DNA of 42,671 nt from Rhodospirillales bacterium (GTDB lineage: Bacteria; Pseudomonadota; Alphaproteobacteria; Kiloniellales; JAKSDN01). A model generated the notes under the pieces. The model had not been told where the DNA came from and searched no databases. It saw only the letters and a program-made list of their open reading frames with translations. The position numbers and the translations under genes were made by a program. Below, piece after piece: positions 22,451-35,501 of this stretch. The stretch is from assembly GCA_029859805.1 (NCBI GenBank), contig JAOUCL010000009.1, positions 1 through 42,671 on the forward strand, given 5' to 3'. How positions within the stretch are numbered: position 1 is the stretch's first letter; each line of letters opens with the position of its first letter.

Positions 22451-22999
22451 ATGACGGATACGGCACATTCCGCCCGCCCGGAAGACGGCGAGACGCGGCG
22501 GGACTTCCTTTATCTCGCGGCCGGCGCGGTCGGCGCGGTCGGCACCGGCATCGCCGTCTGGCCGCTCATCGACTCGATGAATCCCTCGGCCGAGGTGCTG
22601 GCGCTGGCGTCGACGGAGGTCGACCTCTCGCCGATCGAGGAGGGCCAGCGGGTCACGGTCACCTGGCGGGGCAGTCCCGTGTTCATCGAGCACCGCACCG
22701 AGCAGCAGATCGCGGCGGCGCGCGACGTCGTCCTCGAAGAGCTGCCCGACCCGCAGACCGACGAGGCCAGGGTGCAGCGGCCGGAGTGGCTCGTGATGGT
22801 GGGCGTCTGCACCCATCTGGGCTGCATACCGCTCGGCCAAAATCCCGGCCAGAGCCGCGGCGAATTCGGCGGCTGGTTCTGCCCCTGCCACGGCTCGGTA
22901 TTTGACACCTCGGGGCGCATCCGCAGGGGACCGGCGCCGCGGAACTTGGACGTGCCGGCGTACAAGTTCCTAGATGACGGCAGAATACGGATCGGCTGA
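22451..22999 (+). CDS. petA: Ubiquinol-cytochrome c reductase, Rieske iron-sulfur subunit
   Basis: 182 residues from ATG 22451, with GGGAA 8-9 nt upstream. It carries the 2Fe-2S cluster of complex III that accepts the first electron of ubiquinol. The twin-arginine anchor is visible ([19 protein letters not shown], residues 13-31) with one N-terminal membrane segment. The Rieske boxes are Cys120-Thr-His122-Leu-Gly-Cys125 and Cys144-Pro-Cys146-His147-Gly-Ser: ligands C120, H122, C144, H147 and the disulfide pair C125/C146 all present. It is followed by petB after 11 nt and petC, a standard alphaproteobacterial operon. The TATAAT just before the start codon is probably coincidental. Confidence 0.97.
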
Positions 23000-23010: not shown

Positions 23011-24270
23011 ATGAGCGACAAGGGCATGATGAACAACCCGGTAATCCGGTGGATCGAATACCGGATGCCGATCTTCTCCTTCCTCAACCATTCGGTGGGA
23101 ACCGAGTATCCCTCGCCCAAGAACCTCAGCTACTGGTGGAATTTCGGCTCGCTCGCCGGGATCGTGCTGGTGATCATGATCGTCACCGGCATCTTGCTGG
23201 CGATGCAGTACACGCCGCACGCCGACCACGCCTTCGATTCGGTCGAGCGCATCATGCGCGACGTGAACAGCGGCTGGCTGCTGCGTTACCTCCACACGAA
23301 CGGGGGCTCGTTCTTCTTCATCTTGGTCTACATCCACGTGTTCCGCGGCATGTACTACGGCTCCTACAAGGAGCCGCGCGAGCTGCTGTGGATCCTGGGC
23401 GTGATCATCCTGCTGATCATGATGGCCACGGCCTTCATGGGCTACGTGCTGCCCTGGGGCCAGATGAGCTTCTGGGCCGCCAAGGTGATCACCAACCTGT
23501 TCTCGGCGGTCCCCTGGATCGGGGACTGGATCGTCACCTGGCTGTGGGGCGGCTTCACCGTGGGCAACCCGACGCTCAACCGCTTCTACTCGCTGCACTA
23601 CCTGCTGCCCTTCGTGCTCGTCGCCCTGGTCGTGCTGCATATCTGGGCGCTGCACCAATTCGGATCGAACAACCCGCTGGGCATCGAGGCCAAGGGGCCG
23701 CAGGACAAGATCCCCTTCCATCCCTACTACACGGTCAAGGACCTCTACGGCATGGGCGTGTTCCTGCTGGTGTTCTTCGCGGTGGTGTTCTTCGCGCCCA
23801 ACCTGCTGGGCGAGCCGGACAACTACATCGAGGCCAACCCGCTGGCCACGCCGGCCCATATCGTGCCCGAATGGTACTTCATGCCCTACTACGCGATCCT
23901 CCGCTCGATCCCGCAAAAACTGCTCGGCGTGATTGCCATGTTCGGCTCGCTCCTGATCCTGCTGGTGCTGCCGTGGATCGACCGCTCGCCGGTCAAGAGC
24001 GCCAGGTTTCGGCCAGTCTACAAGTGGCTGTTCTGGGTCTTCGTCGTGGTCTGCTTCGTGCTCGGCTATATTGGCGCAAAGCCGCCCGAGGGCGTGTACG
24101 TGGTTGTCGGGCGCATCGCGACCGCGGCTTATTTCCTGTTCTTCGTGGTCGTGTATTTCCTGAGCTATATCGAGCGGCCGAAACCGTTGCCCGCCTCGAT
24201 CAGCGAACCGGTGCTCAAGGGCGGCGGCAGCCCAGCCGGCGCCCAGGCCAAGCCGATGGAGAAGGCCTGA
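23011..24270 (+). CDS. petB: Cytochrome b of the bc1 complex
   Basis: 419 residues, one full-length cytochrome b with eight membrane helices (not the split b6/subunit IV form). Haem-binding helices are seen at [20 protein letters not shown] and [20 protein letters not shown], giving the paired histidines for bL and bH. The Qo-site motif is present as [18 protein letters not shown], and [12 protein letters not shown] precedes it. It oxidises ubiquinol at Qo and reduces quinone at Qi. The short C-terminal extension after the last helix ([14 protein letters not shown] onward) is hydrophilic and variable in the family. The stop overlaps the petC start (TGATG at 24268-24272), so the two are translationally coupled. 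Confidence 0.97.
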
Positions 24271-25085
24271 TGAAAAAGCTTCTGATCGGCGTGCTGGCCG
24301 CGGGCCTCGGGCTGACCCTGACCACGGCTGAGGCGGCCCAAACGCCTGCGCCTCCCGAGCAGGAGTGGTCCTTCGACGGCATCGTCGGCACCTTCGACCG
24401 GGCGGCCCTGCAGCGCGGCCTGCAGGTCTACCGGGAGGTCTGCTCGGGCTGTCATTCCTTGAAATACATCGCCTTCCGCAACCTCTCCGACCTCGGCTAC
24501 ACGCAGGCGGAGATCAACCTCCTGGCCCTCGAAGCCGTGGTGGTCGACGGGCCGGACGACGAGGGCGAGATGTTCGAGCGCGACGGCCGTCCCTCGGATT
24601 ATTTCCCTTCGCCTTTCCCCAACGATAGGGCCGCGGCGGCGGCCAACAATGGCGCACTACCGCCCGACCTCTCGCTGATGGCCAAGGCGCGCAAGGGCGG
24701 GCCCGATTATACCTATGCGATCCTGACCGGCTTTGAGGAGCTGCCGGAAAACTGGAAGGAGCTGGATGAATACAGCTTTCTGCCCAGGGATTTTAAACTC
24801 CAGGAGGGCCTGACCTTCAACAGATACTTCCCCGGTCACCAGATCGCCATGGCTGATCAGATCGCCATGGCTGCGCCTCTGGCCGGGGGCGTCGTCGAGT
24901 ACGCCGACGGGACCGAGGCCACGATCGAGCAGATGTCCCACGACGTCACCACCTTTCTGATGTGGACGGCCGAACCGAAGCTGGAGGTGCGCAAGGCCTG
25001 GGGCGTCAAGGTGATGATCTTCGTCTTCGTCCTGACCGTCCTGCTCGGGTTCGTGAAGAAAAAGGTCTGGGCGGACGTGCACTGA
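24270..25085 (+). CDS. petC: Cytochrome c1 with a duplicated haem-ligand motif
   Basis: 271 residues: signal peptide (1-22), haem c site Cys58-Ser-Gly-Cys61-His62, and a C-terminal membrane anchor (about 246-264) ending KKKVWADVH. Cytochrome c1 carries electrons from the Rieske protein to cytochrome c. The sixth haem ligand is a methionine in a motif of the form G-H-x-I-A-M-x-x-P-L. Here that region reads GHQIAMADQIAMAAPL: six residues (QIAMAD) are duplicated, giving two candidate methionines, Met194 and Met200. The DNA shows an 18-bp tandem duplication (24840-24875). The rest of the protein is normal for an alphaproteobacterial c1. It is the last gene of petABC. Confidence 0.96.
   Translation: MKKLLIGVLAAGLGLTLTTAEAAQTPAPPEQEWSFDGIVGTFDRAALQRGLQVYREVCSGCHSLKYIAFRNLSDLGYTQAEINLLALEAVVVDGPDDEGEMFERDGRPSDYFPSPFPNDRAAAAANNGALPPDLSLMAKARKGGPDYTYAILTGFEELPENWKELDEYSFLPRDFKLQEGLTFNRYFPGHQIAMADQIAMAAPLAGGVVEYADGTEATIEQMSHDVTTFLMWTAEPKLEVRKAWGVKVMIFVFVLTVLLGFVKKKVWADVH
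24840..24875 (+). repeat. 18-bp in-frame tandem duplication in petC
   Basis: Two adjacent 18-bp units, 24840-24857 and 24858-24875, share their first 16 bases exactly (CAGATCGCCATGGCTG) and differ only at the end. It encodes QIAMAD followed by QIAMAA over the axial-methionine region of cytochrome c1. Near-identity implies a recent event or strong selection. Confidence 0.9.
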
Positions 25086-29345: not shown

Positions 29346-29648
29346 ATGGACCATCACGTCACCGAATACCTGGAGACGCGCCGCCCCTTCGAAGTGCGCC
29401 GCCGGTTCGGCGCTGCGGCGGGCGGCCGCTGGGGACCGCTCGCCAAGCTCGATGCCTGGCAGAAGAGGCGGCGGGCGATCCGCGATTTCGAAGCGCTGGA
29501 CGACCGGCTGCTGACCGACATCGGCCTCAGCCGGGCCCAGGTACGACCCCTGGTCGACCAGGTACGACCCCTGGTCGACGGCCTGCACGATGCAGGCACC
29601 GCCGGGACGCCCGCGGCCAACGACAACTGCGCCGCAATCGCCGCCTGA
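29346..29648 (+). CDS. DUF1127 domain protein with an internal tandem duplication
   Basis: 100 residues. The DUF1127 signature is at about 35-63: WQKRRRAIRDFEALDDRLLT followed by DIGLSRAQV. DUF1127 proteins are small, often basic, and some in alphaproteobacteria influence RNA turnover or phosphate and carbon metabolism; no function can be assigned here. Immediately after the signature seven residues (QVRPLVD) occur twice in tandem, encoded by two identical 21-bp units. Upstream AGAGG is about 9 nt from the ATG. It is the first gene after the TetR-type operator/promoter. A 69-bp gap separates it from the AhpD-like gene. Confidence 0.85.
   Translation: MDHHVTEYLETRRPFEVRRRFGAAAGGRWGPLAKLDAWQKRRRAIRDFEALDDRLLTDIGLSRAQVRPLVDQVRPLVDGLHDAGTAGTPAANDNCAAIAA
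29538..29579 (+). repeat. Perfect 21-bp tandem duplication in the DUF1127 gene
   Basis: Units 29538-29558 and 29559-29579 are identical at all 21 positions, so the reading frame is kept and seven residues are repeated. Perfect identity suggests a recent slippage event. Confidence 0.9.
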
Positions 29649-34781: not shown

Positions 34782-35501
34782 TTACTCCTCGGCCTTCTTC
34801 TCCTCGGCTCCCTCGCCGGGGGCGCCTTCGGCGCCCTCGGGGACCTCGCCCTCGGGGACCTCGCCCTCGGGGACCTCGCCCTCGGGAACCTCGCCCTCGG
34901 CCGCTTCGGCGGCTTCGGCGGCTTCCTCGCGGATCACGCTTGGCGCGGCGACTGTGGCAATGGTGAAGTCGCGGTCGGTGATGGTCGGCTCGACGCCTTC
35001 CGGCAGGGTGACCTCGCTGATGTGCATCGAATCGCCGATGTCCCGGCCGGTCAGGTCGATTTCGACCTGCGGCGGGATGGCGTCGGCCTGGCAGGACAGC
35101 TCGATCTCGTAGCGCACCACGTTGAGCACGCCGCCGCGCTTGAGGCCGGGTGACTCCTCTTCGTTGAGGAACACCACGGGCACCATGACGTTGAGCCGGG
35201 TGTCCCGGCTGACCCGTAGGAAATCCACGTGGATCGGCCGGTCGGACACGGGGTGAAGCTGCAGATCTCGGGGCAGGACCCGCTCGCTGCCGCTGCCGAC
35301 CTCGACGTCGAACAGCTTGGCGAAGAAGCCCCCGCCGGTGATCTCCTGGCGCAGGTCCTTGGGGTCGAGGGTGATCAGGACCGGGTCCTTCTTGGCGCCA
35401 TAGATGACTGCCGGAACGCGCCCGGCACGGCGCGCGGCGCGGGCGGCCCCCTTTCCGGCCCGCTCTCTCGGCTCCGCCGAAAGCTTGTTGATCTCGCTCA
35501 T
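34782..35501 (-). CDS. rplY: Ribosomal protein L25 / general stress protein Ctc with an acidic repeat tail
   Basis: 239 residues. The N-terminal domain (about 1-95) binds 5S rRNA: KLSAEPRERAGKGAARAARR, AVIYGAKKDPVLITLDPKDL, and the C-terminal Ctc/TL5 domain (about 100-190) includes VDFLRVSRDTRLNVMVPVVF and IEVDLTGRDIGDSMHISEV-like sequence. From about 195 the tail is AAEAAEAAEGEVPEGEVPEG and onward: four GEVPE-type units, all acidic. L25/Ctc tails vary, but this one is long and repetitive. Ribosome-binding site GAGGAG lies before the ATG. It heads the rplY-pth-ychF run; the hairpin and promoter region with prs lie upstream. Confidence 0.96.
   Translation of the reverse strand: MSEINKLSAEPRERAGKGAARAARRAGRVPAVIYGAKKDPVLITLDPKDLRQEITGGGFFAKLFDVEVGSGSERVLPRDLQLHPVSDRPIHVDFLRVSRDTRLNVMVPVVFLNEEESPGLKRGGVLNVVRYEIELSCQADAIPPQVEIDLTGRDIGDSMHISEVTLPEGVEPTITDRDFTIATVAAPSVIREEAAEAAEAAEGEVPEGEVPEGEVPEGEVPEGAEGAPGEGAEEKKAEE
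34834..34893 (-). repeat. 15-bp tandem repeat in the rplY tail
   Basis: Four 15-bp units from 34834 (three identical, the fourth with one mismatch) encode the repeated acidic GEVPE stretch of ribosomal protein L25. Shorter 9-bp GCTTCGGCG units follow, encoding AEA/EAA. Confidence 0.85.

Follow-up and report, generated by a model that had tools for sequence, protein, structure and literature searches.

Cytochrome c1 (PF02167) of the alphaproteobacterial and mitochondrial bc1 complexes is recognized by a CXXCH haem-attachment motif, an NGALPPDLS region, a methionine followed by x-x-P-L/I, a C-terminal helix and a characteristic fold; the segment carrying the sixth ligand of haem c1 is very constant. 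In Rba. capsulatus, according to the consulted part of the published account (PMC2807467), the ligand is Met183, a loop is closed by the disulphide C144-C167, and the substitution A181T acts as a suppressor related to the betaXM motif (a beta-branched residue two positions before the ligating Met). In the same part of that source, the isolated complex has an Em7 of 235 mV with A181T, down from 335 mV, and photosynthetic growth continues. A search of the open-access literature found no report of a cytochrome c1 with a doubled axial-Met motif, which is weak evidence of its absence.

Such a doubling is encoded by the petC gene of a Rhodospirillales bacterium (contig JAOUCL010000009.1 of GCA_029859805.1), located in the stretch of 42,671 nucleotides analysed here and called the window. 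The gene adjoins those of the Rieske protein and cytochrome b in the order petABC, overlapping petB by one base (Table 1), and its product exceeds the curated PF02167 cut-off of 22.8 bits by far over residues 33-269. The haem-attachment site CSGCH occupies positions 58-62, with C58 and H62 invariant and C61 nearly invariant among 30 aligned sequences, and Met200 stands in the context IAMAAPL. AlphaFold models without haem were obtained for the window PetC (30 sequences) and for a single-copy control, L032. The window model (mean pLDDT 81.5) is predicted to adopt the cytochrome c1 fold, its best match being 9buh_x (Z 21.4, rmsd 2.9, 229 aligned residues, 47% identity) and another match being Paracoccus 2yiu_B (Z 20.2, rmsd 2.4, 203 aligned); a putative membrane anchor helix spans residues 238-270. 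Since PetC gives a single match in the whole assembly (5,357,930 bases in 550 contigs, 96.6% complete), this gene is presumably the one that supplies the bc1 complex. Apart from the loops described below, it is an ordinary cytochrome c1.

Table 1. Position of the pet genes and of the petC features discussed in the text (numbering of the window).
Feature	Coordinates	Strand	Basis or remark
petA, Rieske iron-sulphur protein	22451-22999	+	ORF; Pfam PF10399, PF00355; longer ORF from 22415
petB, cytochrome b, upstream operon partner	23011-24270	+	ORF; Pfam PF00033, PF13631, PF00032
petC, cytochrome c1, 271 aa	24270-25085	+	Pfam PF02167, E 7.4e-92, 307.4 bits
Haem-attachment motif C58-S-G-C61-H62 (CXXCH)	24441-24455	+	translation
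G154-N184 segment, second lengthened loop, 31 residues vs 18 in 154/224 sequences, common to G001	24729-24821	+	sequence comparison; sequence ELPENWKELDEYSFLPRDF...
149-nt tract around the repeat, without a difference from sister species G001	24807-24955	+	longest identical run
First copy of the 18-nt unit, ACCAGATCGCCATGGCTG, with Met194 (24849-24851)	24838-24855	+	best register, 17/18
Junction codon GAT (Asp196); exact duplication predicts GAC	24855-24857	+	one synonymous change
Second copy of the 18-nt unit, ATCAGATCGCCATGGCTG, with Met200 (24867-24869)	24856-24873	+	best register, 17/18

Read directly from the sequence, PetC contains GHQIAMADQIAMAAPL with Met194 and Met200; codons 190-204 are HQIAMADQIAMAAPL, and residues 184-214 read NRYFPGHQIAMADQIAMAAPLAGGVVEYADG. 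An earlier note on this DNA had described an in-frame tandem duplication of 18 bp doubling the axial-Met motif, and both the duplication and its Met numbering hold, with the register moved two bases upstream. A repeat search found the exact repeat CAGATCGCCATGGCTG at 24840-24855 and 24858-24873 (spacing 18), and among the 20 registers compared at period 18 (starts 24830-24849) the one given in Table 1 scored best. The register of the earlier note (24840-24857 and 24858-24875) matches at 16/18 and would need two substitutions, i.e., an Ala-to-Asp change, whereas the best one explains the junction Asp196 up to one synonymous change. No other period-18 pair in the window reaches 17/18 identity, and a chance origin was rejected, with no pair of this quality in any of 10 mononucleotide shuffles. 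Removal of one unit restores GHQIAMAAPL, the sequence of the relatives L003, L005, L008 and L011; together with the 17/18 match, this fits a tandem duplication that probably arose by slippage. The petC duplication escaped Tandem Repeats Finder at score 30, presumably due to the shortness of the array. Two other near-perfect tandem repeats occur in the window, at 34832-34900 (15-bp unit, 4.6 copies) and at 29537-29579 (21-bp unit, 2.0 copies). A 15-bp repeat in petB (23768-23796), considered as another sign of slippage in the operon, was dismissed because the corresponding cytochrome b segment has 28 residues in 13/13 loci with the motif, two of these being the window itself and several others overlapping one another.

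The insert is present with identical DNA in the sister species G001 (contig locus L002/L031), whose petC is identical to that of CAMYKD010000116.1, a metagenome-assembled genome (MAG). This finding speaks against the worry, voiced in the earlier note, that the repeat might be an assembly artefact, and that explanation was ruled out as the main reading. In its remaining forms, i.e., a repeat generated in the contig or an identical tract resulting from a chimera of two co-assembled strains, an assembly error is hardly credible. It would agree with the fragmentation of both genomes (550 and about 240 contigs), with the MAG origin of G001, with the 149-nt tract identical between the two assemblies, and with a second G001 contig that ends in a 97%-identical cytochrome b gene, a sign of mixed strains. 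On the other hand, the duplicated stretch of only 36 nt lies well inside a short read, and the same insert was recovered in two assemblies (from one or two samples) whose petC genes otherwise differ. Assemblers usually collapse short repeats rather than create them.

As a separate observation, the second G001 contig (L075, G001:C3:69096-71459) breaks off within a cytochrome b gene that shows 97% identity to that of the window over 861 bases; the full G001 cytochrome b copy (C116) is 90% identical to the window as protein. Some 86 bases, from the last part of the Rieske gene into the first part of the cytochrome b gene, are missing from L075, which makes mixed strains or a misjoin likely at this locus.

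The genus of the window comprises three genomes, and both members with petC found (G000, the genome of the window, and G001) carry the doubled motif; in the third, G002, petC was not found and cytochrome b appeared only as a remote match. In the rest of the family, the motif is single in G004, G005 and G006 (L014, L106 and L004, respectively), and in G003 petC stops short of the loop (L070). An 81-row petC tree, computed with the loop columns removed, accounts for the doubled motif by one change (SH-aLRT 100); a permutation of labels gave a count as low in 5/500 shuffles, which is what two labelled rows would lead one to expect. The duplication is inherited and, within the sequences read, confined to the genus of the window.

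The two PetC proteins are 89% identical, and their genes share 731/816 bases, the stop codon included (NG86 dN 0.069, dS 0.273). This divergence is unevenly spread: outside the 149-nt tract identity is 87% (582/667 bases), the next longest identical run is 46 nt, and an identical run of 49 codons, as in the tract, appeared in 0/20,000 codon shuffles. The identity of the tract could result from recombination between the two species, from strong constraint or from shared assembly, and it leaves room for a duplication that arose after the species split. The recent slip suggested in the earlier note is borne out in part: the duplication either predates the split of the two species or was exchanged across it. 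Given the identity of the surrounding tract, the retention of both Met codons in two species is no test of selection.

The frequency of the doubled motif was assessed in 246 PetC loci gathered from the order (59/61 genomes with a match), from a class sample (152/190 genomes with a match) and from named contigs (39 loci overlapping the others); the class sample comprises the matches listed only, so very divergent PetC are under-sampled, and the PetC matches of G213 and G238 lie outside the sequences read. Unique loci numbered 228, of which 226 possess both anchors, N184 and D213, the two left out being L070 (cut off) and L244 (a single IAM motif, a gap at D213). Four matches in two pieces were added as possible hidden inserts: the motif is single in L253, L254 and L255, and L256 is truncated. 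Among the matches listed, the doubled motif is present in two of the 230 readable cytochromes c1, with no second I-A-M at the ligand loop in the other 228. A class-wide search for the DNA pattern encoding M-A-x-Q-I-A-M-A, sensitive to this exact spacing and wording only, returned 1/385 genomes, the window's own (the scanned set includes genomes without petC and does not include G001). An extra Met elsewhere in the ligand loop is common among the sequences read, e.g., L231 has a second Met (L-A-M) six residues downstream of the ligand Met.

The loop from N184 to D213 is 24 residues long in 201 sequences, 25 in 13, 30 in the two duplicated ones and of other lengths in 10 (n = 226). The lengthening by six residues proposed in the earlier note is thereby borne out: the window has 30 residues and two motifs, in contrast to 24-25 residues and one I-A-M-type motif in 214/226, a usual length which is a norm rather than a defining feature of the cytochrome c1 family. 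The column of Met200 is Met in 226/226 sequences (230/230 of the readable ones, with L244, L253, L254 and L255 alike), and the distance from this Met to the position of L204 is four residues in 226/226, the latter position being occupied by L (207), I (16), F (2) or V (1). No insert between these two positions was found in the 226 sequences; the inserts of L189 and L231 are situated further downstream of the L204 position. Upstream, the distance from N184 to the Met is 10 or 11 in 216/226 and otherwise 8, 12, 14, 16, 26 or 33, the two duplicated sequences having 16; eight other sequences of the 226 deviate as well (e.g., +23 in L090, L091 and L097, +16 in L249). L255 also has a changed upstream spacing and no second I-A-M. 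As judged from the alignments, a changed length just before the ligand Met is recurrent across several lineages.

The three sequences with the extra 23 residues represent another natural lengthening, found in genus g26 between FPG and the ligand motif LIAMA. The preceding G154-N184 segment (Table 1) is likewise 31 residues long in L208, which has, in addition, an upstream segment longer by four. Different insertions in this region were seen in G005, of the same family as the window, and in several genomes of family f4, reaching up to 77 residues in all.

The earlier note had suggested that either methionine might bind the haem iron. As far as comparative spacing is concerned, Met200 is favoured, since the distance from Met to L204 is constant, the upstream length is variable, and phmmer aligned Met200 with Met160 of chicken c1 (3cwb), which we take to be the haem ligand there; the first copy would then form an upstream bulge. 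The six-residue gap was placed before Met200 in all four phmmer alignments printed. Met200 is therefore the most likely sixth haem ligand on sequence grounds. With L004, L014 and L029, three relatives that have one copy, BLAST set the gap behind the first copy of the window; at the level of alignment the gap can be set on either side, and the spacing argument is comparative, not structural.

Met194 keeps its native upstream context FPGHQIAM, and both copies have a beta-branched residue two positions before the Met (Ile192 and Ile198), as in the betaXM motif defined in the consulted part of PMC2807467, so the sequence alone poses no bar to Met194. If Met194 rather than Met200 were the iron ligand, the second copy would extend the stretch between the ligand and P-L. 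The native upstream context speaks for this arrangement, as does the AlphaFold model, in which a short helix covers residues 188-192, its end two positions ahead of Met194; in the control the helix (172-174) ends four positions ahead of Met178. It is nevertheless quite unlikely, given that the spacing from Met to L204 is unchanged throughout and that the upstream spacing is what changes in several lineages. The model, for its part, is unreliable over residues 191-200 (mean pLDDT 52, with 195-197 under 50), whereas the control block 171-180 containing Met178 has a mean pLDDT of 88; because confidence falls exactly at the insert, the model cannot name the ligand.

A further alternative is that both methionines ligate, haem c1 exchanging Met194 and Met200 or keeping one as a spare against oxidation, with an altered potential or heterogeneity as a result. 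Both copies are complete betaXM motifs (I-A-M), in Rba. capsulatus the ligand region tunes the potential of haem c1 by about 100 mV (A181T; consulted part of PMC2807467), and the two species retain both Met codons; the last point carries no information, however, in view of the identical tract around these codons, and the alternative is regarded as unlikely. Its stronger version, in which two interchangeable sixth ligands compete, giving two coordination states of different potential and thereby a natural ligand switch in bc1, is very doubtful.

Overall, it appears fairly probable that a single slippage event on the stem of the genus was followed by ligation through Met200, with the first copy as a tolerated extension of the preceding loop. 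Replication slippage would have copied 18 bases in frame, once, turning the ancestral GHQIAMAAPL into GHQIAM-AD-QIAMAAPL. Met200, retaining the constant downstream spacing to x-x-P-L, would most likely go on serving as sixth haem ligand, the first copy and its Met194 would most likely be a tolerated bulge in the loop preceding it, and the effect of the duplication would be near-neutral. The duplication demonstrates that the loop, in spite of the constancy of the ligand segment, has room for a second version of its own ligand, and it offers a test of what fixes the choice of ligand, i.e., upstream context (Met194) or downstream spacing (Met200). Should both methionines compete, the core respiratory enzyme would contain a natural bistable haem; should they not, the case illustrates how a slip beside a redox centre is tolerated.

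Compared with the cytochrome c1 family at large, the PetC of the window has in common all the features listed at the outset, i.e., the CXXCH motif, the NGALPPDLS region, the Met followed by x-x-P-L/I, the C-terminal helix and the fold; it differs in six additional residues repeating the axial-Met motif and, from most sequences read, in a loop 13 residues longer before the ligand loop. With the cytochromes c1 L090, L091, L097, L249, L255, L208, L217 and L231 it shares a longer segment upstream of the ligand Met, but the extra residues in these differ in sequence and include no second I-A-M. Within what the consulted part of PMC2807467 covers, an additional loop adjoins the sixth-ligand segment in both Rba. 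capsulatus c1 and the window PetC, and in Rba. capsulatus this segment governs the haem potential. By analogy with the A181T shift and the growth that continued there, a modest change of the haem c1 potential would be plausible in the window PetC and could be tolerated. Unlike the Rba. capsulatus protein as described in that part of the source, the window PetC already has Ile two positions before each Met, contains C58 and C61 as its only cysteines, and carries two Met motifs.
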